This document shows positions 5,327-47,845 of a stretch of DNA of 49,304 bases, piece after piece. How positions within the stretch are numbered: position 1 is the stretch's first letter; each line of letters starts with the position of its first letter. A program made the translations under genes and the position numbers. The notes beneath the pieces are model-generated. The model was not told where the DNA came from. It worked only from the letters and a program-made list of their open reading frames with translations, and made no database searches. This stretch comes from Campylobacterales bacterium (lineage in GTDB: Bacteria; Campylobacterota; Campylobacteria; Campylobacterales; Sulfurimonadaceae). The stretch lies in contig JAJRQV010000046.1 in assembly GCA_024280035.1 (NCBI GenBank), positions 1 through 49,304 of the forward strand. The letters are read 5' to 3'.

Positions 5327-7651
5327 TTACTGCTGAATCTTAAAATTAAAATATTGTGATTGAAAATTCTCTTCTTTAATATTTTTAAAGGCAATCACCG
5401 CACCCTCATTATTTTGTAATTGTAAATATAAAAGCCCTAATGCATAACGACTTTCGCTATGTTTAGGATTTTTCCGTTTGGCTAACTCTAAAAGAGCAAT
5501 AGCATTAGCGGGATGTTTAGCTCCTGTAGCTGCAATAGCGGCAAGAAAGAGAGTATGGGCATCATACTGGGCATATTGGTCAATGAGTTGATTATAAATA
5601 GTATATGCCTCTTCAAAGTTTTGTGTATACACACTGGCTAAGGCTAATGCATGCATTACGCCAACGGGTCTGTCTTTTTCAGTACTAAGTTTGTCTCTAA
5701 TCTTAAGTTTTAAAGGGTACAAAGAACCTGTTATTTGTGCATATTGTGTATACAGATATTGGGTAATAAAAGGACCATAATAGAAGTCATTCATACTGAA
5801 ATTTTGACGCTTAAGATGAGTAATTGCTTTACGGGCAAACATCTTTTGCTCCAGTGAAGAGAAGTGGGTATCAATATAAAGTAGATGAGGTAAAATATCA
5901 TTAGGGATGAGTTGGATAAGTTTCTCAGAATATTCTTGTGCAAAGCTAACTTTGTCCATGCTCATAGCAATTAAAATTTCAAAAGCAAGGTTAAAAGGGC
6001 TCTCTTTTTTATCCTCTTCCATCCAAGCATATGTAGCAGGTAAGTTCGCCTCTTTAAAGTGAATAAGCGCTCTATATAGGTCATATTCAGGATTCTTTTT
6101 CTCATTCGCAAGGTTCTGTTTAATAATAGTATTAAACTTTTCATCTTCTTGGTTTATGAGTTTTGCACTCATCATTGCAAAAATACCAGAAAGATAATTT
6201 TTAGCATCTAGGTTATGTGATTTTTTAAAGTGTTCAAAAGCAAGCGTAATATCTCCAAGTTGAGCATAAGTAAGGGCTAAATCATACTGAACAATACTAT
6301 GACGAGGATATTCTTTGGCAAGTTTTTTAAGCTCTTCATTGGCTTTTAAGAGATCAAAATTCAGTGCCATTTGAATAGCCTTGGCTAAACGGAGGTTAAC
6401 ACGAGATAGTGTCGCACTTTCATTAAGGTAGTTTGATACGCCTGAAATATTATCAATAGAGATATTTGCATTTCCTTTTCGAATATATGAGATTGTTTTA
6501 TTTGCATTAAAAATCTTGTAGGGTGCAAAATAAAATAGAATTTCATAAATGGTATAAGGGTTGTGAATAATGTTTTTATGAAAATTATGTTGCGCCAGAT
6601 TGATATCAAAAAGGGATTTCTTTAAAAAAGTTTCTATAGGATAATGCGTATAAACATCTTCAGGATACATCGCATTAATGTTTTCAATAAGGGTAGCTGC
6701 TGTATGCACCTGACCTGATTTTAAATTAACGTAAGCTAATGCTAGTTGAGATTTTACTGGTGAAATACCATGTGAAATAGCTGCACTGAGGTACTTTTTT
6801 GCTAAGATGCTGTCGCCTATATTAGCATATAAAAGACCAAGACTTAAGGCATTCTCATCTTGGTACTGTTCCTCAAGATCAGCAACTGCATTATGGTAAG
6901 AAGAGAAAAGAAAATTTATCTTAGCACTGAGTTGGTTTTGTACAACTGCATAATCCTCAGAACTTCTGTGTTTAAGGGGAGAGAGTGTTTCTAAATAGTT
7001 TTCTTGATAAAAATTAACCAGTGCATAATAATAAGAGTATAAAGGTGAAGAAGCCTCTGTTGGAAGGTAGGAGTGTGCAAGATTAATAAAACTCTCAAAA
7101 CGCTCTTGGTCTGCAAGTTCTAAAGAAGCAACAGCGGCATTAATCGCACTAACACAAAGATTTTGTCGATTTTGAATAGCAAGTTCAAAATTAGTAATAG
7201 CCTTTTCATACTGTTTTTCTTGTAATTCAGAAACACCAAGATTATAATAAGAGATAGATTCATTATAAGTGGCAATTTTTTTATATAACTTAAGGGCTTC
7301 TTGTTTATCTCCTTGTGTGTACATAATATGGGCACGTTTTATCATTTTTTCTATTTGTGTGATAGATGTTCTTTTGGCTTTTTTTGGTTCGGTTTGCGCT
7401 TCAGTAATGTCTATGTAGCGGTAAGGGTCTTCAACCTCTTCCTCACCTGAAAGAATAAATACAGAGATTATTATAATAAGAATAATAATAAGAGCACCAA
7501 TAATAATAAAGAGTTTCTTTTTTGAAGTTAAAGAAGAGCTTTTTTCTTTTTCAGCACTCTCTTCATCTGTAGTGTTTACAGACTTAGAATTCTCTCCTTG
7601 GGCTGCATCTTCTTCTTCAATTATTATTATCTCTTCTTCTTGTTCTGCCAC
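5327..7651 (-). CDS. Large membrane-anchored TPR-repeat protein
   Basis: A 774-aa protein of unknown specific role. It opens with about 40 mostly acidic residues (EEEIIIIEEEDA), has one transmembrane helix at about 45-68 (IIIGALIIILIIII), then a long helical region in which TPR-like repeats are visible. Examples are MYTQGDKQEALKLYKKIA, YNLGVSELQEKQYEKAI and near the C-terminus ALGLLYLQLQNNEGAV. By topology most of it would be periplasmic, acting as a protein-protein scaffold. The GTG start at 7651 is supported by AAAGGA about 7 nt upstream. It is a single-gene unit between convergent pssA and a divergent taxis operon, with its own extended -10 promoter. No enzymatic motif seen. Confidence 0.85.
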   Translation of the reverse strand: MAEQEEEIIIIEEEDAAQGENSKSVNTTDEESAEKEKSSSLTSKKKLFIIIGALIIILIIIISVFILSGEEEVEDPYRYIDITEAQTEPKKAKRTSITQIEKMIKRAHIMYTQGDKQEALKLYKKIATYNESISYYNLGVSELQEKQYEKAITNFELAIQNRQNLCVSAINAAVASLELADQERFESFINLAHSYLPTEASSPLYSYYYALVNFYQENYLETLSPLKHRSSEDYAVVQNQLSAKINFLFSSYHNAVADLEEQYQDENALSLGLLYANIGDSILAKKYLSAAISHGISPVKSQLALAYVNLKSGQVHTAATLIENINAMYPEDVYTHYPIETFLKKSLFDINLAQHNFHKNIIHNPYTIYEILFYFAPYKIFNANKTISYIRKGNANISIDNISGVSNYLNESATLSRVNLRLAKAIQMALNFDLLKANEELKKLAKEYPRHSIVQYDLALTYAQLGDITLAFEHFKKSHNLDAKNYLSGIFAMMSAKLINQEDEKFNTIIKQNLANEKKNPEYDLYRALIHFKEANLPATYAWMEEDKKESPFNLAFEILIAMSMDKVSFAQEYSEKLIQLIPNDILPHLLYIDTHFSSLEQKMFARKAITHLKRQNFSMNDFYYGPFITQYLYTQYAQITGSLYPLKLKIRDKLSTEKDRPVGVMHALALASVYTQNFEEAYTIYNQLIDQYAQYDAHTLFLAAIAATGAKHPANAIALLELAKRKNPKHSESRYALGLLYLQLQNNEGAVIAFKNIKEENFQSQYFNFKIQQ

Positions 7652-7725
7652 CGGGGTCCTTTAAGGATAAAGTTTATCTATAATAAGCAATTTTCTTTCC
7701 ATGTTTTAACTTTTAGACTAATATC

Positions 7726-7755
7726 TATAATAAATTAATTAGATTTATTATAACA
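7726..7755 (-). promoter_or_regulatory. Extended -10 promoter inside a perfect inverted repeat, upstream of the TPR gene
   Basis: TATAATAAAT (7726-7735) and ATTTATTATA (7743-7752) form a perfect 10-bp inverted repeat with a 7-nt spacer. On the minus strand the proximal arm reads TGTTATAAT, the extended -10 form seen elsewhere in this window, about 96 nt before the GTG start. The repeat could be an operator, but its high AT content means chance cannot be excluded. Confidence 0.42.
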
Positions 7756-8092
7756 CATAGAAATTGAGTGATATATCTTACAAAATATCACTGAAAATAC
7801 TAAGGAATTACTAAACTACTAATCAGGTCAAAAGGATTGTAAAGTAAGTGCAGCTGATTCAATTTTATATAAACTGTCAGAATTAATAGAAAATAATCTT
7901 TTTTTAATTAAATAACATGCTAAAATTGGTTACGAAATATTAATATATTTTTTTCGAGTACTTGTAACTATTGTTGACATAGTGGATTTAGAACATCATG
8001 TGTGTTACAAGAAATGGATTATACAAGAAAAAAAACATTTTATTTCTATTTTTAGATGTAAGAAAAGATTAATATATTAAAAAGGTTGTGTA
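7756..8092. other. Non-coding stretch between divergent genes
   Basis: About 340 bp of AT-rich sequence between the TPR promoter and the PAS gene. I find no credible ORF and no RNA gene. TTGACA at 7974-7979 has no matching -10 at the right distance. AAAAGG lies 8 nt before the PAS gene ATG. The promoter of the taxis operon must be here but I cannot assign it. Confidence 0.5.
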
Positions 8093-8578
8093 ATGGAAAT
8101 CCATATGAATGAAAATGATATGATTGTCTCCAAGACAGATATGAAAGGTCGTATTACTTACGGGAATGAAGCCTTTATAAACATATCAGGTTATTCAGAA
8201 AAAGAGTTACTGCACTCTCCTCATAATATATTAAGACATGATGATATGCCTAAGATTATTTTTCAATTTTTATGGGAACGTTTAAAAGAGAGAAAATCTA
8301 TTAATGCTTATGTGAAAAATGCACGAAAAGATGGTGGTTTTTATTGGGTTTTTGCTAATGTTACTGCCTCAGTAGATGCTAATAATAATGTTATAGGATA
8401 CTATTCTGTACGCAGAAAACCATCTGAGCAGGGAAAAAAAGTAATTGAAGCCTTATATAAAAACTTATTAAATGCGCAGAATCAAGGTGGAGTAAGCGTG
8501 TCAATGCAACTGCTTAATGAAACACTTAAAAAAGAAGGAGTAAGTTATGATGAATTTATCGTTAATCTTCAAAAATAA
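8093..8578 (+). CDS. Aer/CetB-type PAS redox sensor protein
   Basis: A 161-aa cytosolic protein containing one PAS domain (about 10-115) of the Aer class, which binds FAD and senses redox or energy state. Residues shared with E. coli Aer include the block [12 protein letters not shown] and a following Trp (FLWERLK), the region that contacts FAD in Aer, then [12 protein letters not shown] and IGYYSVR. The remaining 45 residues are helical, without transmembrane segments. It overlaps the next gene, a membrane chemoreceptor, by 32 nt. This two-gene layout matches the CetB/CetA bipartite energy-taxis receptor of Campylobacter jejuni (known family); that this pair acts the same way is inference. 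Confidence 0.88.
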
Positions 8579-9956
8579 GCATAGACTTTTTTATAGTGTT
8601 TTAGGGGTTATCGCTGTAATCATAATTTCACTTGATTCTTTGGTGTATGGGATTATTTTATTAGTGCTAATAATACTAGGTATATTTATTCCTACTGATG
8701 ATAATGAGAATGAACTCTTTGAGCAGATTAATTCTATTATGGCTCAAGGTGCTGTTGGAAACCTAGAAGATAGGGTGGTAAATATTCCTATAGACTCAAA
8801 ATATTTTAATATTGCTTGGAGTTATAATAACTTACTTGATCAAACGGAAGCCTTTATTCGAGATGCTCAAAGTGCCATTAGTTTAGCTTCTGTAGGAGAT
8901 AAGAGTGCAGTAATGTTTGCTGATGGGTTTACGGGTAGTTTCTCTAGTACGGTTAAACCAATTAATAAAGCAGTAGAAGGGATTTTACTGAGTAAACGTG
9001 TTGAAGTACAAAACCAACTTAGCAAAGCATTTAACTCTATTGGTGGGGGAACAACAGGGGGAATCATGCAGATAAAAGATGATATTGAGAAGGGGAGTGT
9101 TGCCATGCAAGATATTGTCAAGGCTTCAGATAAAACCAGTGAGGCATCACGACAGAGCATGGAGGCTGTGGGTGCTATAGAAAAAAACTTTGAAGAGTTA
9201 AGCCAGAGTATTGATACAACCTCACAAAGTGCAATGAACTTAAGTGAGCAATCAAAAGAGATTTCTAGTATTGCTGAACTCATTAAAGACATTGCCGATC
9301 AGACTAATTTATTAGCATTAAATGCTGCTATTGAAGCTGCAAGAGCGGGTGCACATGGTCGTGGTTTTGCTGTTGTTGCAGATGAGGTGAGAAAACTTGC
9401 TGAAAGAACAGCTAAAGCTACTCAAGAGATTTCTATAACGATTTCAACCCTGCAACAAGAGACGGTCGAGTTACATAGCAACTCTAAAAATATGTCAGTT
9501 TTAGCAAGTCAATCGGTTGAATACGTGAGTGAGTTTTCTACTACAATTGAAGACTTTAATACCAGTTCTATTCAATCTTCTCGTGATGCGAGTTTTATTA
9601 ATGGCATTTTTATGGTTTCATTGGCAAAAATTGATCATATTATTTTTAAATCCAAGGGTTATTCAGCCGTACTGGGTAATACTAAAAACACCTTTTTTGA
9701 AGATCATTCAAAATGTAGATTTGGACAATGGTACTTAAATGAGGGGAAAAAAGAGTTTGGAGATAAAAAAGCTTATAGTGAAATAGAAAAGCCTCACCAT
9801 AAATTGCATGAGGCTGTTATTGAAAATATGAAACTTGTGGAAGATGGGAGTATTTATGACCCTATTAATACAAAAATTATTATTCAAAGATTTAAAGAGA
9901 TGGAAGACTCAAGTGAGGAACTGTTCTGCTTATTTGATGCAATGATACAAGAATAA
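8547..9956 (+). CDS. Membrane chemoreceptor (CetA-like MCP) with C-terminal CZB zinc domain
   Basis: A 469-aa methyl-accepting chemotaxis protein. Two hydrophobic helices at about 13-48 lie almost back to back, leaving no periplasmic sensor, so the signal must come from inside, presumably from the preceding PAS protein. The signalling hairpin is canonical ([35 protein letters not shown]). After it comes a CZB (chemoreceptor zinc-binding) domain at about 350-440: a His in [18 protein letters not shown] with the Cys ligand, and [13 protein letters not shown] 7 nt before the ATG at 8547 supports the start. CetA-like receptors are known; the CZB tail on one is noteworthy. Confidence 0.9.
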
Positions 9957-9968
9957 AATACAAGCCTT

Positions 9969-9997
9969 CAGAGATAGTCTTAAACGTTTTATCTCTG
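9969..9997. terminator. Shared hairpin between convergent MCP gene and serS
   Basis: CAGAGATA (9969-9976) and TATCTCTG (9990-9997) form a perfect 8-bp stem with a 13-nt loop, placed in the 50-bp gap between two converging genes. There is no long T tract on either side, so efficiency is uncertain. Confidence 0.45.
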
Positions 9998-10006
9998 TAC
10001 TTAGTT

Positions 10007-11251
10007 TTATTTGATGTAAGGTTTTAAAACTTCTGGAATATCTATACTTCCATTTTCGTTTTGGTAGTTTTCCATAATTGCAACCATTGTACGACCCACG
10101 GCTAAAGATGAACCATTTAAAGTATGGACTAAAAGGTTTTTCTTTCCATCTTTATAACGAATTTTTGCACGTCTTGCTTGGACCTCTCTTGTGTTGGAAA
10201 TAGAAGATATCTCTCTATAAGTTGCCTGACCGGGTAACCAGACTTCAAGGTCAATGGTTCTTGCTGCTGAAAAGCCCATATCTCCTGTACATAATTGCAT
10301 CTGTCTATACGGAAGCCCTAATGCTTCTAACATATCTGAAGCACATTCCACCATCTCTTGAAAGACCTTATCTGACTGTTGAGCTGAGGTAATTGAAACA
10401 AGTTCAACCTTTGGAAACTGGTGCTGACGAATGATTCCGCGTGTATCACGTCCTGCTGAGCCTGCCTCTTTTCTAAAACATTGGGTAAATGCCGTCATTT
10501 TAATAGGAAGTTCATTCAGGGGAATAATCTCATCTTGAAAAAGGTTTGTTACAGGCACTTCTCCCGTAGGAATAAGGTATAACTCTTCACCTTCAATCTT
10601 ATAAAGGTCCTCTTCAAACTTAGGGAGCTGACCTGTTCCCATTAAAGAAGCTCTGTTGGTAATAACAGGAACAGAAACCTCACCAAAACCACGTTCAGCA
10701 TTAAAGTCAAGCATAAAGTTAACTAAGGCACGTTCAATTTTTGCACCCATTCCTGAAATAACAGAAAAACGACTTTTGGCAACCTTTACACCTCTTTCAA
10801 AGTCAATCCAACCATTTTCAGCGAGTTCCCAGTGCTCTTTTGGTGTAAATGAAAAACTTTTAGGTTCAAGAACTTTTTTAATTTCTACATTTTCATCTTC
10901 ATCTTCACCCACAGGAACATCTTCATCAGGAATATTTGGAATAGACGTTAAAATGGTATTTAACTTCTCTTCTTCAAGACGGGTGAGTTCTTGCTTTTGT
11001 GTTATTAAAAGCTTATTGGCTTCAACCTCTGCCTTAAGTTCAGTAATGTCTTTTTTCTCTTTCATGTACTGACCAAAGAGTTTAGACTTCTCATTTTGTG
11101 TGGCTTGAGCAGACTCAAGTTCTTGTTTTACTGCCTTAAAAACCTGATGAACTGAACGCAGTTCTTCTAAAAGTTGAGTATCCACATTCCTGCGTTTAAG
11201 CATTTGTGTAACACCATCAAAGTCTCTGTTTAATAGTTTAATATCGATCAT
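10007..11251 (-). CDS. serS: Seryl-tRNA synthetase
   Basis: Charges tRNA-Ser with serine; class II synthetase, cytosolic homodimer. The 414-aa protein starts [12 protein letters not shown] as in homologues, so I use the ATG at 11251 (GGA 9 nt upstream) rather than the in-frame ATG 45 nt earlier. An N-terminal coiled-coil arm (about 30-110) binds the tRNA. Motif 2 is visible as [14 protein letters not shown], with HQFPKVELV. Motif 3 is [19 protein letters not shown], where most SerRS have NGSGLA. TPTGEVP-type substrate loop appears as [11 protein letters not shown]. Essential housekeeping gene with no operon partner; divergent from the FIST kinase. Confidence 0.96.
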
Positions 11252-11308
11252 AAATTGTCCATAAAATAAAGTTTTTAAGTATATCAAAAATATCATTAAA
11301 GCTTGTTT

Positions 11309-11364: not shown

Positions 11365-13821
11365 ATGAAAAGTGTTTCAACTCAGTATAAAAATTTAAAA
11401 CAACTTAGAGAGTTTAGTTTGCCTTATGCGCAAGAAGAGAACTGTTTAGTTCAGATATTTTCAGGTGTAATGGATAAAGACTTTTTAACAGAAATAAGTA
11501 CACATGTGTGTGAAATACTCCCTAAGGCACATATTATAGGTTCTACTACTGATGGTGAGATTTATAATAGAGAAGTAACTGTTCATGAAACCATCATATC
11601 TATTTCATGTTTTGATGATGTGAAACTGACTTCGGGCTTCTCTTTGGAGGCTGACTCTTTTCAAAGTGCCCACTCTCTTTTTACTACAATAGCTTCAGAT
11701 AAGACACGCTTAATGATTGTCTTTTGTGATGGTATCTACTGTAATGGAGATGATGTTTTAAGTGCTTTACATAAGTGTAAAAAAGAGATGATTGTAGCAG
11801 GGGGCTTAGCTGGTGATAATGGGCTTTTGAAAAAAACCTTTGTTACGCACAATAAAGGAGTGTATACGGAGGGTTTAGTTGCGGTTGCTTTTGAAAGTGA
11901 AAGTTTACAAATTAATACCCATTACAGTTTTGATTGGATTCCAATTGGAACTGAAATGCAAATTACCTTAGCTAAAGCGAATAGAGTTTATGAGATTAAT
12001 CATAAACCAGCCCGAGATATTTATGCTAAATATTTAGGTGATACTGCTGCTGTAAAACTTCCTAGTATAGGGGTTGAATTTCCTTTAATTGTAGAAGAAA
12101 ATGGAGTAAGAATTGCCCGAGCAGTTCTTCAAGTTCACCAAGATAAGTCTTTGAGTTTTGCAGGAAACCTTAAAGAGGGAACGAAGGTTCGTTTTGGTGT
12201 AGGTAATCCTGAACTTATTTTACAAAATGGTTTAAAGAATTCACAAGAAATTAAAAAATATCCTATTGAAGCTGCTTATATCTACTCATGTATGGCAAGA
12301 CGACGTTTTTTACAAGAACATATCTCCACAGAATTGGAACGTTATCCTCTTGATGTGACCTTAAGTGGTTTTTTTACTTATGGTGAATTTTATAGTACAA
12401 CAGAGTCTAAAAGTTTTTTAAATCAGTCTGTAACTATTTTAATGCTGTGTGAATCAGCTAGCCTTATAACGAAGAACTACTCAAAATTTGTAAAAAAAGA
12501 TGATACTAAAACAAAAGAGTATTCACAAAACTTAGAAGCCTTAGCACATTTGGTCAATGCGACATCTAAAGATGTAATAGAGTTAAATGAAACCTTAGAA
12601 AATAGAGTCGAAGATAAGGTTAAAGAGTTAGAAAAATCTACACGTTTTTTTCAAAAAATATTTGAAACTGCAAATGAAGGTATCTGGGTAATTAATGTTG
12701 ATAAAGAGACCATTATGGTTAATAGAGCCTTATGCCTAATGCTTGGTTATACAGAAAAAGATCTTTTTGGAGTGCCTATTAATGATTTTGTAGATACGAA
12801 AAACAAACAAGAGTTTCTTGAAAATACAGTTGAAACACAAAATGAAAAGGGGGGTAAAAGTTATGAAATCGACCTTATTCATAAGGATGGAAGAGTTGTT
12901 CATACACTTTTTAGTACAGAGGTCTTGTATGATGAAAATAGCAGGGTTATTGGATCTTTTGCTATGGTTTCTGATATTACTAAACGTAAACAAGCTGAAG
13001 ATGAGTTAGTCTCTTTTAACCTTCTTTTAGAAGAAAAGATTGCGGAAGAGGTTCTAAAAAACCGCTCTAAAGATGAGCTAATGACAAAACAGATGCGTCT
13101 GGCTCAGATGGGTGAGATGATTTCAATGATTGCGCATCAATGGCGTCAACCCTTATCTACAATTTCAACCATTGTGGCGTCTATACAGATGAGTCTGAGT
13201 TTGGATGAAAAAGAAGAAACGCCTTTGTATGAAGACCTTAATCATGTAAATGAGCATATCCAATTTTTATCCGACACCATAGATGACTTTAGGCATTTTT
13301 TTAGCCCGAATAAACTCAAAACACAGGTGAAGATTTCAGATATGCTAGATAACTCTTTAGGTATTGTAAAACAGGCTTTAATACAGGCAAATATCGATAT
13401 TATTAATGATTATTCGCATCTTCAAAGACCGATGAAACTTTACTCAAATGAGTTAGTTCAAGTCTTTTTAAATCTTATCAAAAACTCTATGGATGTTTTG
13501 ATTGAAAAAGATTTAGATCGTGCCTATATCTGTATTCGTGGAAGTGAGTATAAAGATAAATCGGTGATTGTTTTTGAAGACAATGGAGGGGGTATTCCTA
13601 CTAAGATTATGGAAAAAATCTTTGAGCCATATTTTACAACTAAAAATGAAAAGAATGGTACAGGTTTAGGTCTTTACATGTCTAAAATGATTATTGAAGA
13701 GCATTGTGATGGGCATTTAATTGTTGAAAACACCGATGTGGGTGCCCGTTTTACGATCGCCTTAGATTACTTAAAAGAAGATGAAAACATTAGCCAAATC
13801 TTAGAAAAAGAGATGGTTTGA
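11365..13821 (+). CDS. FIST-PAS hybrid sensor histidine kinase
   Basis: An 818-aa soluble sensor kinase without transmembrane helices. An N-terminal FIST domain (about 25-215: [26 protein letters not shown]) continues into a FIST-C domain (about 220-370: [24 protein letters not shown]). FIST is thought to bind small ligands. After a coiled coil comes a PAS domain (about 430-555: [22 protein letters not shown]), then a kinase core with His box [14 protein letters not shown] (HWRQ type), N box [11 protein letters not shown]1 DNGGGIP and G2 GTGLGLYM. No receiver domain is attached and no response regulator is adjacent, so its partner is unknown. Single-gene unit followed by about 200 bp before hemN. 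Confidence 0.9.
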
Positions 13822-21932: not shown

Positions 21933-24900
21933 TTAAGCTTCATTATCACTCTTTTGAGATTGCAGTAAGGTACATATAGCATCTAATGCGATAGGTTTGC
22001 TAAATAAATAACCTTGAGCAAAATCACATTCTTGAGCTTTTAAATAATCAAATTGCTCTTGTGTTTCAACACCTTCAGCAATAACCTTCATTCCTAAGGC
22101 ATGAGACATCGCAATGATTGCATTAACAAGTTCTTTATTAGCCGAGTCTTTTGTAATATTACTAACAAAACTTCTATCTATTTTTAATATACTAAAAGAG
22201 TAGGCTCTTAAATAACTTAAAGACGAATAACCTGTTCCAAAATCATCCATTGCTAGCTCTATACCCAAGTCATGTAAATCATTTAGTGCCTGTGTTGCAT
22301 AATTATGCCCACTCATTAAAACACCTTCTGTAATTTCAAGTTCTAAGGTATTTACAGAAATATTATAGTCTTGAATGATAGCTTTTATAGACTCTACAAG
22401 GTTGGGATCACGAAACTGCCTAGGAGACAAGTTTACAGCAATCTTAAAAAGTGGGTGATACTCTTTTTGACACTTTAATGCCATCTGTATAGCCTCTTTT
22501 AAAACATAAAGTCCTATAGGAATAATTAAGCCAGTATGTTCGGCTATAGGAATAAATTCTGCAGGACTGACCATACCTAAGACGGGGCTATTCCATCGTA
22601 CAAGAGCTTCTGCTCCTATTATTTTTCCTGTAGATATATTAATCTGAGGTTGATACATCACACTTAATTCACCTCTGTCTAGGGCTCCATGCAGATGTTC
22701 TTCTATGCTTATACGTCGAGAAAGCTCTTGATTCATATCATCACTAAAATAGGCATATGTATTTCGTCCTAACTCTTTGGCATGATACATGGCAGAATCA
22801 GCATTACGTAGTAGTTCAGAAGGAGTGTTTCCATTATTTGGATAGGTTGCAATGCCTATACTTACGGTTAAAAGTAATTCTCTATTATCAATAACAAAGA
22901 CCTCTCTAAATTTCTGAACTAGATTTTGCGCAATATAATCAGCATCTTGTGTGTCTTGTAAATCATTTAATAAAATTATAAACTCATCTCCACCTAAACG
23001 ACCTACTGTATCTTCATTTCTTATAACACTTAGCAGACGACTTGAGGCTTCAATAAGAAGTTTATCTCCTGTTTCATGCCCTAGAGTATCATTTATTTTT
23101 TTAAAATCATCTAGGTCTAAAAATAAGACAGCAATACTTTTTGCATTTCTTTTTGCATCATTTAAAAGTTGTGTTAAACGATCAATGGAGAGCAGTCTAT
23201 TGGGAAGGTTTGTTAATGTGTCATAATGTGCTTGACGAAGGATATATGCCTCATGTTTTTTACGTAAAGATATATCTGAAAATGTTCCTACAAAACGTTT
23301 AGGTTTACCGTTTTCATCATGTTCAACAATCTCACCTTTTCCGTGTATCCATATATGATGTCCATCTTTATGTAAAAATCGAAACTCCATCTGATACTCT
23401 TTTGTGTCTCCTGATATAAAATCTTCTATACTTTTAACAACTGCATCAATATCATCAGGATGAAGACGTTTTTTCCATTCATTAAAATTTTGAGGATATT
23501 CATAAGGTTGATACCCACACATAGTATAATGACGTTCATCAAATGTGACCTCATTTTTTTGTAAATTCCAGTCCCATATACCATCACTAGCAACTGACAT
23601 GGCAAGTGTTAGTCTCTGCTCACTACGTTTTAGTTTTTCTTCCATTTTTATTCGGTGTGATATATCTAAAAAGGTAACAACTGCACCAAGCTTTTCATCT
23701 TTCCTTAATAGAGGATATGCCCAGTATTCTGCATTAAATGAACTGCCATCTTTTCGCCATAAAATCTCATTACTAATATGTGTATTTGTATTACAGAGGC
23801 ATGTCTTTACAATTGGGCATTGTGAAGTTGGATATTTAGAACCATCTGAGTGTTTGTAATGAATGAGTTTATGCATATGTTTACCAATAAGATCTTTTTC
23901 AGAGTCATATCCAAGAATATGTATACATGATTTATTAGCAAAGGTACATTTTCCTTGTGTATCTAATCCATAAATTGCTTCTGCTGTTGAGTTTAATAAA
24001 TCAGATATAAAGTCTGCTCTCTCTTTGGCAAGGAGTTCGCTTCTTTGTCTTTTTATATTTTGTATCATAATGTCTTTGTCGGTTCTTTTTAAGAGTATAT
24101 GTAAAAACCAAAACAGTATAAGTGTTAAAATTAAAACACTAATGAGTATATAAAGAGTGAGCTGTTTAAGCAGAGCCGTACTAGCAGAAATATCATTGAG
24201 TATAACTAATTCAGCAATATTTTTATTTTCAGCATCTTTAATAGGGGTATTAATCATACTCCATGTTTGCCCCTTATACTCAAGCTGAGAAACAAGTTCA
24301 TAATTGTGTTTAATCTTATTTTGAATAATAATATTCATACTAGCGTCCAAATATGCTTGAGTAGAATATGATAAAACATAATGTGTAAATTGATTCCATT
24401 TATGGGTACGTTTAAGCATATTCATACCGTTTTCCCATAAGGTTTTATTTAAGACCTTTTTCTTGATGAGTAAGATGAGTTCTACTTGATGATGATATTG
24501 TATAGTTTTTAATAAATCTTCTATCTCTTTGCCTAATTCAACATAACCTATAAGTACATTATCTTGAAAAATAGGTTTAACAATACGAAGGGTAAGTGTA
24601 CCTAATGTACCAAGCTCAAGCCCTGAAGAAACAGCACCCGTACGCTCTGCCTCAAGAAGTGTATATCGGTTAATCAAATCTCCATAACGCGTAGGCTGAT
24701 GCATACGCAAAAGGTTTTGTTTATTGGGAAGATGAAAGTAGAAATGCGTGATATTAAATCGCTTCTTAAATTCTATGTTTTTTGTATGATACTCATTAAA
24801 TAACGCTGTTTTATTTTTCTCTTTTAAAAGTTTTATTAGTATGGGTTTTTTACTGAGGTCGTTTAATAAGGTTTCAAGAAGCAGTGACTGCTCATCAAGA

Positions 24901-25088
24901 GTATGGTATAAACCATCTTTTGCAGCATTCATATTGATTTGTGCATTTTGTTTTATATGCTCTTTTTGCAGAAGAAATAGACTGATTACAAAGGTAGAAG
25001 TCATTAAAATTAATATGCTAACTAAAGGAATTAAAAGACGTTTTTGAACAGGTTTTATAGATGTCGATTCATTAATATACTCACCCAT
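21933..25088 (-). CDS. Membrane PAS-PAS-GGDEF-EAL cyclic-di-GMP protein
   Basis: A 1051-aa inner-membrane regulator of cyclic-di-GMP. TM1 about 20-40, a periplasmic Cache-like sensor domain about 40-300, TM2 about 305-328, two PAS domains (about 355-475 and 485-605), GGDEF about 615-775 and EAL about 790-1040. GGDEF has an intact active site (RLGGDEFIIL) with an upstream RNED that fits the RxxD inhibitory site. EAL has GAEALVRW, NLSPRQF, DDFGTGYSSL and KIDRSFV, suggesting working phosphodiesterase residues. Both activities may be present, so the net direction cannot be read. Monocistronic, upstream region shared divergently with ssrA. Confidence 0.93.
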   Translation of the reverse strand: MGEYINESTSIKPVQKRLLIPLVSILILMTSTFVISLFLLQKEHIKQNAQINMNAAKDGLYHTLDEQSLLLETLLNDLSKKPILIKLLKEKNKTALFNEYHTKNIEFKKRFNITHFYFHLPNKQNLLRMHQPTRYGDLINRYTLLEAERTGAVSSGLELGTLGTLTLRIVKPIFQDNVLIGYVELGKEIEDLLKTIQYHHQVELILLIKKKVLNKTLWENGMNMLKRTHKWNQFTHYVLSYSTQAYLDASMNIIIQNKIKHNYELVSQLEYKGQTWSMINTPIKDAENKNIAELVILNDISASTALLKQLTLYILISVLILTLILFWFLHILLKRTDKDIMIQNIKRQRSELLAKERADFISDLLNSTAEAIYGLDTQGKCTFANKSCIHILGYDSEKDLIGKHMHKLIHYKHSDGSKYPTSQCPIVKTCLCNTNTHISNEILWRKDGSSFNAEYWAYPLLRKDEKLGAVVTFLDISHRIKMEEKLKRSEQRLTLAMSVASDGIWDWNLQKNEVTFDERHYTMCGYQPYEYPQNFNEWKKRLHPDDIDAVVKSIEDFISGDTKEYQMEFRFLHKDGHHIWIHGKGEIVEHDENGKPKRFVGTFSDISLRKKHEAYILRQAHYDTLTNLPNRLLSIDRLTQLLNDAKRNAKSIAVLFLDLDDFKKINDTLGHETGDKLLIEASSRLLSVIRNEDTVGRLGGDEFIILLNDLQDTQDADYIAQNLVQKFREVFVIDNRELLLTVSIGIATYPNNGNTPSELLRNADSAMYHAKELGRNTYAYFSDDMNQELSRRISIEEHLHGALDRGELSVMYQPQINISTGKIIGAEALVRWNSPVLGMVSPAEFIPIAEHTGLIIPIGLYVLKEAIQMALKCQKEYHPLFKIAVNLSPRQFRDPNLVESIKAIIQDYNISVNTLELEITEGVLMSGHNYATQALNDLHDLGIELAMDDFGTGYSSLSYLRAYSFSILKIDRSFVSNITKDSANKELVNAIIAMSHALGMKVIAEGVETQEQFDYLKAQECDFAQGYLFSKPIALDAICTLLQSQKSDNEA

Positions 25089-25925: not shown

Positions 25926-26972
25926 ATGCCACCAAGAGCAAACGAAGAAGTCGCAATTAGATTTTATGATATTGATAGATGTGGTTATTATAAATATGAT
26001 GGTGCTGGTGGTTCTCATGAACTATGCACAATCACTGAAATGTTAGATGACCTTATTGATTGGTCAGATGGATTAACATTAGAAGAATCAAAAACAACAA
26101 ATTTGTTTACAACTGCTTCAGAAAGGCTAAATGTTTATTGCCTTTCTGTTAAAAAAAGTGCAAACAATCATTTTCTTATATCAACTTGGAATGAATCCCA
26201 TAATAAAGATGGTAAAATATTTAGTATATCTAAAGATGAAGTGGTTAGTGATGACCCAATTCTCAATTCTATTGAAGTAGAAGATGGCACCATTCCAGGC
26301 TATGCTACCTATTTTTGGTTTATACCCGAAGATAATATCTTTGCAACAATTCGTTTTCAGCATGTAGAAAATGGACATGCAGGGCTAAAGGCTTATTTAC
26401 ACGGTTTTTTAACATTTTTTTCAAAATTTACAATATCAGAAGTCAATGATGAAGGCGAAAATGAAATAAAAGGCTATGGAAATGAAGATACTCATCATAA
26501 TGATATTCATCCATATTTTAAATCAAAACTATTGCGATGTTCTGGTGATAATGCGAATATATTAGAATCATTCTCAGATATTACAAAAGTTATTCGAAGG
26601 GTTTCTTTAATGCAAAGTGTAGAAGAGGACATTGAAATATATGAAAAAATTACAAATTTTCTTGGGCTAACAGATACTCAAGTTATGCAAGATGTTGTGC
26701 CAATTGAATTTATAATTAATACACATCCAACGGAAACAGAAGTAGAACAAATTTTAGAAAATTATACTCACGATGAACAATCATGGGATGATATAGGTTT
26801 TAAATTTAAAAAACAGACAAATATTGAATGGCTTAGTAGTAAGATACCAAAGAAAAGTCTCAATGTGAGTATTGAGCGATACAATACTGAATTAATTAAT
26901 ACTCAAGACTTACTTACTGAATTAGATGCTAACTATCGTGAATTAAAAAGTATCTATGCAGACAATTCATAG
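25926..26972 (+). CDS. Cassette protein of unknown family, possible RexA-like cytosolic sensor
   Basis: A 348-aa acidic protein I cannot assign to a named family with confidence. No signal peptide, no transmembrane helix, no Cys/His cluster and no Walker motif. The middle (about 75-165) alternates short beta strands: LNVYCLSV, NHFLISTWNE, KIFSISKDEVV, GYATYFWFIPEDNIFATIRF, then a Gly and helix AGLKAYLHGFLTFF. The last 40 residues look coiled-coil. This order of strands and helix resembles lambda RexA as I recall it. With the two small membrane proteins downstream it makes a sensor-plus-membrane-effector layout. ATG preceded by AAAGG at 6 nt. Much more AT-rich surroundings than the flanking housekeeping genes. 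Confidence 0.8.
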   Translation: MPPRANEEVAIRFYDIDRCGYYKYDGAGGSHELCTITEMLDDLIDWSDGLTLEESKTTNLFTTASERLNVYCLSVKKSANNHFLISTWNESHNKDGKIFSISKDEVVSDDPILNSIEVEDGTIPGYATYFWFIPEDNIFATIRFQHVENGHAGLKAYLHGFLTFFSKFTISEVNDEGENEIKGYGNEDTHHNDIHPYFKSKLLRCSGDNANILESFSDITKVIRRVSLMQSVEEDIEIYEKITNFLGLTDTQVMQDVVPIEFIINTHPTETEVEQILENYTHDEQSWDDIGFKFKKQTNIEWLSSKIPKKSLNVSIERYNTELINTQDLLTELDANYRELKSIYADNS

Positions 26973-26984
26973 TATAATTAATTT

Positions 26985-27218
26985 ATGAAAAATTCTTTAT
27001 TAATTATAACAATTCTTTTAGTTCTTGCGATAAGTTATATTTTACCTGATGCACCTTTTAATAAACAAAAAGAACTTTTTGCACATCTATTGCAAATCTC
27101 TTCTATATTGTTAGCTGTTTCTGGAGCTTGGATAGCAATTATTTATCCTCAAGCCTTGAAAAATATTATTAATAATATCAATATAGATGATGAAAAAAAC
27201 AAGTCTTCACACTCATGA
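26985..27218 (+). CDS. Small two-TM membrane protein, possible N-terminal half of a RexB-like protein
   Basis: A 77-aa protein with two hydrophobic helices (about 4-21 and 31-54), a short linker SYILPDAPFNKQKELFAHL and a hydrophilic tail. It starts 12 nt after the preceding stop with no clear ribosome-binding site, which suggests coupled translation. Its stop lies within ATGA, overlapping the next start. The TM1, P-rich linker, TM2 pattern resembles the first half of the four-TM ion channel protein RexB of phage lambda. The resemblance is by eye only and needs a profile search. Confidence 0.72.
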   Translation: MKNSLLIITILLVLAISYILPDAPFNKQKELFAHLLQISSILLAVSGAWIAIIYPQALKNIINNINIDDEKNKSSHS

Positions 27219-27481
27219 AACCTATGCTTACATCTTTATCAATTATTGGGTTCATCATAATAATAGAAATATTGTCTTTTGTTCTTAGTCTTTATCAGTT
27301 TAGTGGATTACAGATACATTGGCTAAGAAAACTTTCTCTTGCTGCTCTTTTGTTTATGTATCTACTACAGTTATATGCAATTATTTATACATTCTTACCT
27401 ATTTTTCATGTTAAAAGAAAATCATCTTTAGAGAACAAAAAGCATAAAAAGCGGAATAAAATATTAAGAAAAAATTCCTAA
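27215..27481 (+). CDS. Small two-TM membrane protein with basic tail, possible C-terminal half of a RexB-like protein
   Basis: An 88-aa protein with two hydrophobic helices (about 5-28 and 38-64) and a strongly basic C-terminus (KRKSSLENKKHKKRNKILRKNS-type composition), which would stay in the cytoplasm. ATGA overlap with the previous gene gives tight stoichiometry. Together the two small proteins have 165 aa and four helices, close to RexB (about 144 aa, four helices). I see no frameshift that would simply rejoin them, so the split looks genuine. No function is established. Confidence 0.72.
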   Translation: MKPMLTSLSIIGFIIIIEILSFVLSLYQFSGLQIHWLRKLSLAALLFMYLLQLYAIIYTFLPIFHVKRKSSLENKKHKKRNKILRKNS

Positions 27482-27497
27482 TATTGTAAAATAACAC

Positions 27498-28163
27498 ATG
27501 ATAGACTTTAGCACATTATTCGGAACAATACTTTCTAACTTATGGCCTTTCATAATTGTTATAATCATAATAGCTTTTTTTAAAAGTCCTTGGATGAAAG
27601 GTAAGATTGGGGAGGCAATAGTAAACACATCAAATAAGCTGTTTTTAGACAAAGAAATCTATACCTCTATAAAAGATATTACTTTACAATTATCAGATGA
27701 TTCTACTACACAAATAGACCATATATTAGTATCTAAGTATGGTATCTTTGTAATAGAGACTAAAAATATGAAAGGTTGGATATTTGGAGCTGAAAATCAG
27801 AAGCAATGGACTCAACAAATATTTAAAGAAAAGAACCGTTTTCAAAACCCACTTCATCAAAACTATAGACATACTAAAGCTCTTGAAGAGATATTAGATT
27901 TACCTTCTTCTCATTTTACTTCACTTATAGCATTTGTTGGAGACTGTGAGTTTAAAACTCCAATGCCAGAGAATGTATTTTGTGGTTTATCATATACTAA
28001 ATACATAAAATCATTTAAAGTAGAAAGATTAACACCTGTTCAAATAAGAACTGTAATAAGCAAACTACAAAGAAAAAGATTAAAACAAGGCTTCTCAACT
28101 GATAGAGAGCATATAGATAATCTAAAGCAAAGAAAAAAAAGCTCCTACAACTTCTTCGGATAA
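27498..28163 (+). CDS. Membrane-anchored NERD (nuclease-related) domain protein, probable frameshift near its end
   Basis: A 221-aa protein with an N-terminal transmembrane helix (about 11-29) and a NERD domain at about 33-140. D74 in QIDHILVSKYGIF and E87/K89 in VIETKNMKG form the D...ExK pattern of the restriction-endonuclease-like fold. KNRFQNPLHQNYRH is also typical. NERD proteins are thought to act in DNA processing or defence. After an 8-A run (28133-28140), removing one A would continue the frame to 28230 through KKICSRCDSEMIVRK, the first half of the topoisomerase-type zinc ribbon that often follows NERD. So the gene is shifted or the run is miscalled. It starts 16 nt after the small membrane gene. 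Confidence 0.82.
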   Translation: MIDFSTLFGTILSNLWPFIIVIIIIAFFKSPWMKGKIGEAIVNTSNKLFLDKEIYTSIKDITLQLSDDSTTQIDHILVSKYGIFVIETKNMKGWIFGAENQKQWTQQIFKEKNRFQNPLHQNYRHTKALEEILDLPSSHFTSLIAFVGDCEFKTPMPENVFCGLSYTKYIKSFKVERLTPVQIRTVISKLQRKRLKQGFSTDREHIDNLKQRKKSSYNFFG

Positions 28164-46036: not shown

Positions 46037-47845
46037 ATGACATCTTTAATCATGAAAATTATGATGTTTCTTCTGCTTATAAGTACACTTTCTGGACTTG
46101 AAACTGACACTTTTGAAAGAGACATTTTTCTTACTCCCAATACAGATGAATTAAATCTTTTTAATTACCTTGATATTTACATAGATGTTGATAAAAACCT
46201 AAGCATTCAAGAGATTAGTGATGCTTCAAATCAAAACCTATTTAGACCTATTTCTGAGCTTGGAAATAGTTTTGGCTTTTCTGATGCTGTGTACTGGGTT
46301 CGGTTCTCTTTAGATACGCAAGAGATAGAAAATAAAACCTTTTTGCTAGAGTTGGCTTTTCCTCTTATTGATAAACTCACTTTTTATTTTCCACACAATA
46401 AGAACCTGTTTGGACACAAAGAGATGGGGGATGCTGTCGCTTTTTGTAAAAGGGATATAGATTATAGAAACTTTGTGATTGAACTGCCTTTAAAAACAGG
46501 TAAAAAAAACAGGTATTATATGCGGCTAGAATCAACAGGCCCTATACAGATTCCACTTTTTTTATGGACACAAGAAGCTTTTATTAGCCATATTGAAAAA
46601 ACAAACTTTCTTATTGGTGGATATTATGGAACTATGTTTTTACTGATGCTTATGGCATTAGTCGCTTTTATAAAAGTAAGAAAAGAACTGTTTATCTATT
46701 ATGTGTTTTATATTTCTAGTTTTTTAATTTTTCAACTTTCTCTTAATGGTTTTGTTTATCAGTACCTCTTATCAAAACATCCTTATGCAAATGCACTGTT
46801 TTTACCTATTAGTGTAGGGGCGGTTGTGATTGGTGGTCTGGTTTTTTCAAGTGAATTTTTACAAATATGGAGACGAGAACATAAGTACTTAAAATTGGCA
46901 TTTTTAACATTAATGAGTATGGGTGTTTTCACAATAGTCTTTACTCTCTTTGGTGACTACAGGCGCGCACTTGAAGTTGCGACCATTACAGGCTTTTTAC
47001 TTCCTCCTTTAGTTTTAGTGGCTTCTTTTCGTTCTTGGCATGTAGGTTACTCGCCTGCACGATATTTTTTATTAGCATGGAGTCTTTTACTCTTTGGTGT
47101 TTTTATTTCAGGTTTATTGCATTTAGGTTATGTGTCAAATAATTTTTTTACTGTATATTCTATGCAGATAGGTTCAACCTTAGAAGTCATTCTCTTAGGT
47201 TACGCTATGTTTGATCAAGTCACTCTACTGAACAAAGAAAAAGAGGATGCGACCTTACAAGCCAATCGGTATTTAAATCAAATTAATGAAGGTTTAGAAG
47301 GTTTAGTCTTAGAAAGAACAAAAGAGTTAGAAGAAAAAAACAGACAATTAAAAGAACTCTCCATTCACGACAGTATGACAGGTTTATTGAATCATAATAC
47401 TTCCATAGAACATCTGAAAATGATAATAAAATCGGTAAAACGTTATAACGACAGTTTGGCGGTCATCATGTTAGATATTGATTTATTTAAAAATATTAAT
47501 GACAATTATGGTCATCCCGCAGGCGATAAGGTAATTATCTCAATAGCTGCTATTTTAAAACAGAGTTTACGCGACTCTGATATCTGTGGTCGTTATGGTG
47601 GAGAAGAGTTTATTCTAATTTTAGATAGAATTGAGCGTGAACAAGCCTATGCTTTAGCAGAACGTATTAGAAAAAAGATTCTCTTACTTAAAATAGATGA
47701 AATTGATAATAGTGTAATTTCTGCAAGTTTTGGTTTGAGTATATATGATAAAAATAGATCAGATCAAGACTTAATTCTTGAAGCTGATAAGGCATTATAT
47801 AGAGCAAAAAAAGAGGGTCGAAATCAAGTAGTTATTAGCAGTTAA
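46037..47845 (+). CDS. 7TMR-DISM diguanylate cyclase
   Basis: A 602-aa membrane receptor that makes cyclic-di-GMP. Signal peptide about 1-20; 7TMR-DISMED2 extracellular domain about 28-180 (FSDAVYWVRFSL, LELAFPLIDKL are typical); seven membrane helices about 190-395; coiled coil about 400-440; GGDEF domain about 440-602 with HDSMTGLLNHN, IDLFKNINDNYGHPAGD, RYGGEEFILI and an RDSD inhibitory site, so it should be active. The ligand is likely a sugar or other small molecule by family analogy. Single gene followed by ppk2 at 22 bp. Confidence 0.93.
   Translation: MTSLIMKIMMFLLLISTLSGLETDTFERDIFLTPNTDELNLFNYLDIYIDVDKNLSIQEISDASNQNLFRPISELGNSFGFSDAVYWVRFSLDTQEIENKTFLLELAFPLIDKLTFYFPHNKNLFGHKEMGDAVAFCKRDIDYRNFVIELPLKTGKKNRYYMRLESTGPIQIPLFLWTQEAFISHIEKTNFLIGGYYGTMFLLMLMALVAFIKVRKELFIYYVFYISSFLIFQLSLNGFVYQYLLSKHPYANALFLPISVGAVVIGGLVFSSEFLQIWRREHKYLKLAFLTLMSMGVFTIVFTLFGDYRRALEVATITGFLLPPLVLVASFRSWHVGYSPARYFLLAWSLLLFGVFISGLLHLGYVSNNFFTVYSMQIGSTLEVILLGYAMFDQVTLLNKEKEDATLQANRYLNQINEGLEGLVLERTKELEEKNRQLKELSIHDSMTGLLNHNTSIEHLKMIIKSVKRYNDSLAVIMLDIDLFKNINDNYGHPAGDKVIISIAAILKQSLRDSDICGRYGGEEFILILDRIEREQAYALAERIRKKILLLKIDEIDNSVISASFGLSIYDKNRSDQDLILEADKALYRAKKEGRNQVVISS

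Follow-up and report, generated by a model that had tools for sequence, protein, structure and literature searches.

A CetBA-like receptor pair with a C-terminal CZB domain in the Campylobacterales, and a putative CZB relic in Campylobacter CetA

Bipartite energy taxis has its founding model in Campylobacter jejuni CetA, whose gene lies in the order cj1191c-cetA-cetB (PMC3558505), and Elliott and DiRita have announced 55 such HAMP/PAS pairs (PMC2628428). In M. gryphiswaldense, CetB2 contacts FAD through His54, Asn55, Arg58, Phe67, Trp71, Asn86, Val100, and Arg117, and CetB2 carrying substitutions at FAD contacts is non-functional (PMC12442639). CZB domains have been described in other chemoreceptors. 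In the solved structure of TlpD, zinc is held by H315, C340, H368, and H372 (spacing 25/28/4), the PAS domain lies near the CZB loops, and the Zn-bound form is proposed to favour kinase ON, the apo form being OFF (PMC12871147). For Salmonella McpA, the CZB has been proposed to sense how much zinc is bioavailable, a quantity that would stand in for exogenous redox (PMC13370339). Here, we describe a locus in which the two kinds of component stand side by side.

The gene pair and its domains

The window, meaning the whole stretch of DNA analysed, comprises 49,304 nucleotides of contig JAJRQV010000046.1 (assembly GCA_024280035.1) from a member of the Sulfurimonadaceae. On its plus strand, a PAS open reading frame (8093-8578, 161 aa) overlaps by 32 nt (8547-8578) with that of a methyl-accepting chemotaxis protein (MCP; 8547-9956, 469 aa). 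The pair is flanked by a divergent TPR-protein gene (5327-7651, minus strand) and by a convergent minus-strand gene (10007-11296) that we take, by eye, to be serS. Scanning 7600-10100 for promoters and terminators gave counts no higher than those from shuffled sequence (10 vs. 12.3 and 1 vs. 1.1), so we make no claim on regulation. Elsewhere, the window encodes an 818-aa FIST-FIST_C-PAS-histidine kinase (11365-13821, plus strand; PF08495 1e-39, PF10442 1.1e-24, PF02518 1.5e-17), a 1051-aa dCache-PAS-GGDEF-EAL protein (21933-25088, minus strand), and a 602-aa 7TMR-DISM-GGDEF protein (46037-47845, plus strand), as well as a 348-aa open reading frame (25926-26972, plus strand) without a Pfam match at 1e-6, which lies where the window, taken in 2-kb steps, is richest in A+T (26001-28000, G+C 0.288).

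The upstream gene encodes a CetB/Aer-type protein with a single PAS fold (aa 9-103), matched above cut-off by both PF08447 (9.6e-13) and PF00989 (3.5e-09). Among solved structures, it comes closest to the PAS domain of E. coli Aer (8dik, 5.3e-27), followed by Aer (31cj, 3.2e-24). In the aligned columns, it has all eight of the FAD contacts of CetB2, specifically H44, N45, R48, F57, W61, N76, V90, and R107. R48, F57, N76, and R107 are kept in 160/160 of the PAS partners collected across the Campylobacterales, and H44 in 159; the W61 column holds Trp in 141 and Tyr in the other 19, and the N45 column holds Asn in 104 and Ser in 53. These residues suggest that the protein probably binds flavin. 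The first-pass annotation had likened the pair to CetB/CetA, and the likeness is borne out by the Aer-type match, by the complete set of FAD contacts, and by the adjoining MCP gene, whose product lacks a periplasmic sensor domain. Across the same genome, we counted 19 PAS matches, 12 of which, counting that of the window, occur in short open frames of 128-195 aa, and three matches span in-frame stops; the loci noted besides the window's, L009-L017, L020, and L021, fall on contigs C5, C17, C18, C47, C50, C59, C61, C84, C100, and C104. A PAS search of 101 genomes of the phylum, for orientation only, found a match in 86.

The MCP begins with a hydrophobic stretch (aa 12-53; in 15-residue windows, the mean hydropathy peaks at 3.19) that would fit a transmembrane hairpin of two helices joined by a very short periplasmic turn; on Kyte-Doolittle windows, and with the topology taken by analogy with CetA (PMC2628428), we place this predicted hairpin at about aa 12-49 (8580-8693). 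A putative HAMP-like control region follows at aa 71-132 (8757-8942). This reading rests on family columns, in which G71, R76, N94, D98, E101, and G127 are invariant in 42/42 aligned members (two C. jejuni-labelled sequences, L186 and L197, included), and on the NCBIfam Aer2 profile, which aligns to aa 59-349, a match of which the signalling domain forms part. The Pfam HAMP profile (PF00672) finds no match in the window MCP, and with a threshold of E 0.01, four of the 42 members match HAMP_2 and one matches HAMP. Elliott, in 2009, is said to have marked the HAMP/PAS-pair family by a HAMP domain with conserved residues. The MCP signalling domain itself occupies aa 219-335 (9201-9551; PF00015, 6.3e-34). 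Outside this domain, homology to Campylobacter CetA is apparent, as aa 1-190 match genomes of family f11 (taken, by inference, as Campylobacter) at 5e-20 to 4e-6, genome G029 being one of them at 5.1e-10. Placement among the soluble, TlpD-like receptors was considered and rejected, given the hydrophobic stretch at aa 12-53.

Beyond the signalling domain, aa 364-426 (9636-9824) match the CZB domain PF13682 at 1.5e-15 (57.7 bits vs. a cut-off of 29.4). Together with those of the PAS and signalling domains, the Pfam and PDB E-values lie far beyond chance. A 3His/1Cys set is present, consisting of H364 (9636-9638), C390 (9714-9716), H417 (9795-9797), and H421 (9807-9809) with a spacing of 26/27/4, and D363, R391, and W395 are the counterparts of TlpD D314, R341, and W345 (PMC12871147). 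The first-pass annotation had placed a CZB domain with its His/Cys ligands at the end of the MCP, naming absent ligands as the objection that would count against it; the domain search confirms the former, and the objection falls. K368, G393, and W395 are invariant in 34 relatives. The rows of this set, and of the 122-row CZB profile used below, were chosen for having all four ligands, so ligand invariance within them is no evidence.

For the AF2 model of aa 346-469 (pLDDT 97.1), Foldseek places the DgcZ CZB (3t9o) first, ahead of DosC MID, which Pfam lists as a CZB-like bundle (PF21118). The five best rows are all one or the other, with probabilities of 0.97-1.00 and E-values of 0.047 at best (none below 0.001), and VIA gave Z scores of 11.7-11.8 tied with other helical bundles. 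A CZB fold is thus predicted, with weak E-values and in a class of structure, the helical bundle, that scores well in general. A PDB sequence search with 9600-9953 (E up to 1) found no match, though the DgcZ CZB is in the PDB, so the CZB comparison rests on Pfam, residues, and fold. The domain is followed by a predicted helix (aa 439-468, 9861-9950) that is conserved in the family, with E453 and S456 nearly invariant; K361, H364, K368, E453, and S456 are identical in the window, L186, and L197. The genome has six CZB matches in all, five beyond the window's own. One of these (L005, contig C11, 67324-67518) lies in an open frame of 253-262 aa without an MCP hairpin motif and with an N-terminus that looks CheW-like by eye, CheW-CZB being a known architecture (PMC8262984).

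Distribution across the Campylobacterales

As the query for relatives, we used MCP aa 1-190, a segment free of both the CZB and the Pfam signalling match and chosen against circularity. It is unique in its own genome and matches 162 of the 248 genomes of the order; 129 of these were read and 33 left out. The resulting set of 174 MCPs comprises the best 130 loci (window included), 30 low-scoring loci, and 14 named Campylobacter loci, and because loci were picked by score rank plus additions, the percentages are not frequencies in nature. Two loci of family f17 with split MCP frames (L158 and L184) were counted by their best open reading frame, and the CZB HMM applied to the best 130 loci drew on the six CZB sequences from the genome that holds the window. 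A CZB search over the whole order, again for orientation only, found a match in 210/248 genomes.

Among the best 130 loci, a CZB is present in 125 and a single-PAS gene lies immediately upstream in 124, and 116 have all four ligands; eight of the 125 CZB rows are missing the CxxGxW motif. Over all 174 loci, 123 have the complete ligand set, of which 121 also keep the G and W columns, and an upstream PAS open reading frame of at least 150 aa is present in 160, overlapping in 125. Members with the four-ligand CZB belong to 13 of the 17 family codes, and 99 of the 129 genomes read have at least one four-ligand copy. The window locus is an ordinary member of a CetBA-plus-CZB variant, and the rarity that the first-pass annotation had implied for a CetA with a TlpD-type domain gives way to these counts. 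That annotation had also held that its reading would suffer if CetA homologues generally carried the domain: this is so for the nearer Campylobacterales relatives, but the four ligands are found in only 7/30 of the low-scoring loci and in 0/14 of the named Campylobacter loci. The idea of the CZB as a recent, local add-on was rejected on this distribution and on the relics described below.

Judged by its ligand columns, the zinc site has decayed repeatedly among CZB-bearing relatives. At least one ligand is missing in 14 of the best 130 loci, where the CZB is the rule, and 5/74 tree rows are degenerate. CZB-type domains with at least one ligand replaced were seen at L028, L043, L056, L070, L106, L114, L127, L136, and L150, and for L043, L056, L106, L114, and L127 an intact family copy lies in the same genome.

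By a simple hydropathy rule, the hydrophobic N-terminus is absent in 25 of the 123 four-ligand loci, of which two have split frames, two are full-length (475-478 aa), and 21 encode proteins of 425-447 aa. The last may work with a PAS partner as soluble CZB receptors; they are L055, L066, L093, L099, L111, L115, L116, L119, L126, L128, L129, L132, L139, L141, L142, L144-L146, L149, L153, and L155.

The C-terminus of Campylobacter CetA

Among named genomes, the scan found 14 Campylobacter loci (L186-L199), four of them labelled C. jejuni (L186, L188, L189, and L197), with the gene order PAS-MCP-PAS in seven (L186, L187, L189-L192, and L195) and PAS-PAS-MCP in L196 and L197. Pfam, run on L186 and L197 at E up to 10, found the MCP signalling domain and no CZB. 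Comparison of alignments with the family CZB profile told more. The C-termini of 19 CetA proteins from Campylobacter and family f14 scored 67.4 over 101 columns (probability 97.4); 100 column shuffles reached 19.0 at most, and the alignment read in reverse gave 16.8. The codes f11, f14, and f9 are taken, by inference, as Campylobacter, Helicobacter-like, and Arcobacter-like, respectively. With 40 shuffles each, the 14 named Campylobacter rows scored 68.2 (shuffle maximum 16.0), four f14 rows 68.8 (13.8), f11 g39 48.3 (19.0), and one f5 row 55.9 (22.1). Four f11 g17/g47 rows, in which the W column is still Trp, reached 118.7 (17.3). Three f9 rows scored 11.9 vs. shuffles of up to 14.5, which is no relic. 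Weaker scores, not counted as relics, came from L166, L167, and L179 (26.9 over 24 columns only; shuffle maximum 14.9), L156 (24.3; 17.7), and f14 g51 (19.8; 17.6).

None of the profile-compared relic groups keeps the four ligands. The Campylobacter C-terminus starts with a nearly invariant KIDHILYKS, whose histidine (H27) aligns with window H364, and K24, H27, Y30, K31, and S32 are invariant in the 19 Campylobacter and f14 rows; because this first helix is nearly invariant, the bundle is probably still in use. In the named Campylobacter rows, the first ligand His is the only one present, the Cys column holds Asp or Asn, and there is no HxxxH. An ISNLC-type cysteine, seen by eye in 11/19 rows, was considered as a retained ligand and rejected: it falls a few residues past the C390 column, which all 14 named rows fill with Asp or Asn, and so only the first His is kept. 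The AF2 model of the Campylobacter C-terminus (pLDDT 91.7) has the same helix order as the window CZB, namely one long, two short, and two long helices. Foldseek gave no row with E below 0.001 and no CZB among the 50 rows listed, and VIA placed DgcZ at rank 37 (Z 7.9), tied with unrelated bundles, making the fold comparison non-diagnostic. Three of four ligands are gone from the aligned columns, then, and Campylobacter CetA has the look of a receptor whose zinc site was lost.

Whether the C. jejuni-type receptor lost the domain or the lineages related to the window gained it was also approached through trees built without the CZB columns, one of 74 rows and a second, careful tree without the outgroup and without L180, L159, and L161. 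CZB-less rows form separate groups: one unites the C. jejuni-type and f14 sequences (eight rows, L166 and L179 included), L060 stands apart, and another (L113, L156, and L157, plus the degenerate L181) is nested among full rows on branches with support of 99/93 and 99/95. On the careful tree, the CZB-less state requires four changes, all forced by starred branches. Reading gain or loss from the tree alone was rejected, since the root had a support of 38 with the outgroup, and the careful tree is unrooted; the direction of change therefore rests on the relic. As the Campylobacter C-terminus aligns with the CZB, the C. jejuni difference is better read as a loss there, and we infer loss in C. jejuni-type CetA rather than gain in the window's lineage. 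The converse would have a CZB-free CetA ancestor, as in C. jejuni, to which a TlpD-type domain was added in lineages akin to that of the window. With five further CZB matches in the same genome, a donor would have been at hand, and the weak root and the absence of a relic in the f9 rows would also suit such a gain. We consider it very improbable, given that the full CZB spans 13 of 17 family codes, that CZB-free Campylobacter and part of f14 have C-termini aligning with the domain at a profile score of 67 vs. a shuffle maximum of 19, and that the CZB-free group around L113 and L156 (with L157 and degenerate L181) sits inside full rows at 99/93 and 99/95.

Loss in C. jejuni-type CetA opens a broader proposition, for which we judge the odds to be even. 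C. jejuni CetA might be a reduced form of the common campylobacterotal receptor, one with two redox currencies (FAD in trans and Cys-Zn in cis), at least two lineages having kept the CZB bundle and dropped the zinc site to leave a metal-free part as in DosC MID. As part of the same evenly balanced proposition, the two lineages would be C. jejuni with some Helicobacter-like species, and the membrane-free Campylobacter-like members.

Signalling model and relation to known receptors

On the gene pair, its domains, the ligand and FAD-contact residues, the predicted CZB fold, the distribution, and the Campylobacter profile match, we put a probability of roughly three in four on the pair being a CetBA-type energy-taxis receptor in which FAD and zinc or oxidant inputs meet at one coiled coil. 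The soluble, Aer-like PAS protein would hold FAD, track the redox state of electron transport, and act on the membrane MCP at its HAMP-like base. The MCP chain would form the antiparallel signalling hairpin, return towards the membrane end, and close with the CZB bundle, holding Zn2+ on its 3His/1Cys set. Because the chain would run to the CheA-binding tip and back, the C-terminal CZB should be membrane-proximal, beside the HAMP-like region, and since the PAS site would be membrane-proximal as well, both inputs would press on the same end of one coiled coil. CheA would then read their sum, with FAD reporting respiratory redox and the CZB reporting either the supply of zinc or an attack by oxidants on Cys-Zn; the sign and weighting of each input lie beyond sequence. 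Such dual sensing would presuppose FAD binding, zinc binding, PAS-MCP contact, and summation. The integration of FAD and Zn/HOCl signals suggested by the first-pass annotation is plausible. The two-input form would be the common one in the Campylobacterales (13/17 family codes), with C. jejuni-type CetA keeping the CZB-derived bundle only.

Readings with a single sensor must be set against this one. If only the FAD-PAS protein senses, the CZB would cap the coiled coil as a structural element stabilised by zinc and would carry no signal, in keeping with the ligand-poor relics, which persist as conserved bundles (the five invariant residues in 19 rows) and would thereby show the bundle to be useful without zinc; the CZB-like DosC MID is another such bundle. 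A silent cap is harder to square with a complete ligand set in 123/174 members from 13 family codes, the G and W columns being kept as well in 121, or with the CZBs of TlpD and McpA, both of which are reported to signal (PMC12871147; PMC13370339), and we regard it as unlikely. The opposite assignment, with the CZB as the sole sensor and the PAS protein as a structural or assembly partner, draws on H. pylori TlpD, whose PAS is described as being without an obvious ligand pocket and as possibly mechanical (PMC12871147). It is barely credible for a PAS protein that matches Aer and keeps 8/8 CetB2 FAD contacts, four of them in 160/160 partners. The preferred reading remains that of two inputs on one receptor.

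FAD-PAS energy taxis and CZB zinc or oxidant taxis are usually treated as separate classes, and in the Campylobacterales, they would often belong to one receptor, making signal integration at the base of the coiled coil directly testable. Within the literature searched, we found no paper joining the CetA family with a CZB, nor one describing a CZB relic in CetA, and Elliott et al. 2009 may have noted the domain. The passages concerned in PMC9665402 name a CZB for Tlp6 and none for Tlp9/CetA, those in PMC6194562 and PMC9321776 hold nothing on a CetA with a CZB, and those in PMC13059710 discuss Aer together with TlpD as ROS sensors. By word count, a 2026 aerotaxis review leaves the CZB unmentioned. 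HAMP/PAS pairs and membrane CZB chemoreceptors are already known, and what appears to be new is the union of CetA with a CZB and the relic CZB in CetA.

Compared with individual systems, the window pair shares with C. jejuni CetA/CetB(/CetC) the separate Aer-like PAS protein and the membrane MCP with a hydrophobic hairpin and a HAMP-like region. The window MCP is 28% identical to the C. jejuni-labelled CetA L186, and the L186-type C-terminal bundle aligns with the CZB; L186 and L189 are arranged PAS-MCP-PAS, whereas the window has PAS-MCP with an overlap. E. coli Aer has the same kind of FAD-PAS sequence (8dik, 5e-27) and a sensor that acts from the cytosol, but it is one protein and is not known to have a CZB. 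The overlapping cetB-cetA genes of M. gryphiswaldense CetB2/CetA2 resemble the window pair, as do the FAD contacts, and in the main text of that paper, the words CZB and zinc each occur 0 times (PMC12442639). H. pylori TlpD and Salmonella McpA have, like the window MCP, a C-terminal 3His/1Cys CZB past the MCP hairpin; TlpD is, however, cytosolic and has a divergent PAS within its single chain (PMC12871147), in contrast to the membrane hairpin and separate Aer-like PAS protein of the window. Membrane MCPs with a CZB are one of seven architecture groups in the CZB survey, whose passages on that group link it neither to a separate PAS partner nor to CetA (PMC8262984). Set among these systems, the best-studied CetA would be one without an input that many of its relatives keep, and its unannotated C-terminal ~105 residues would gain an origin, as a former zinc-binding domain.
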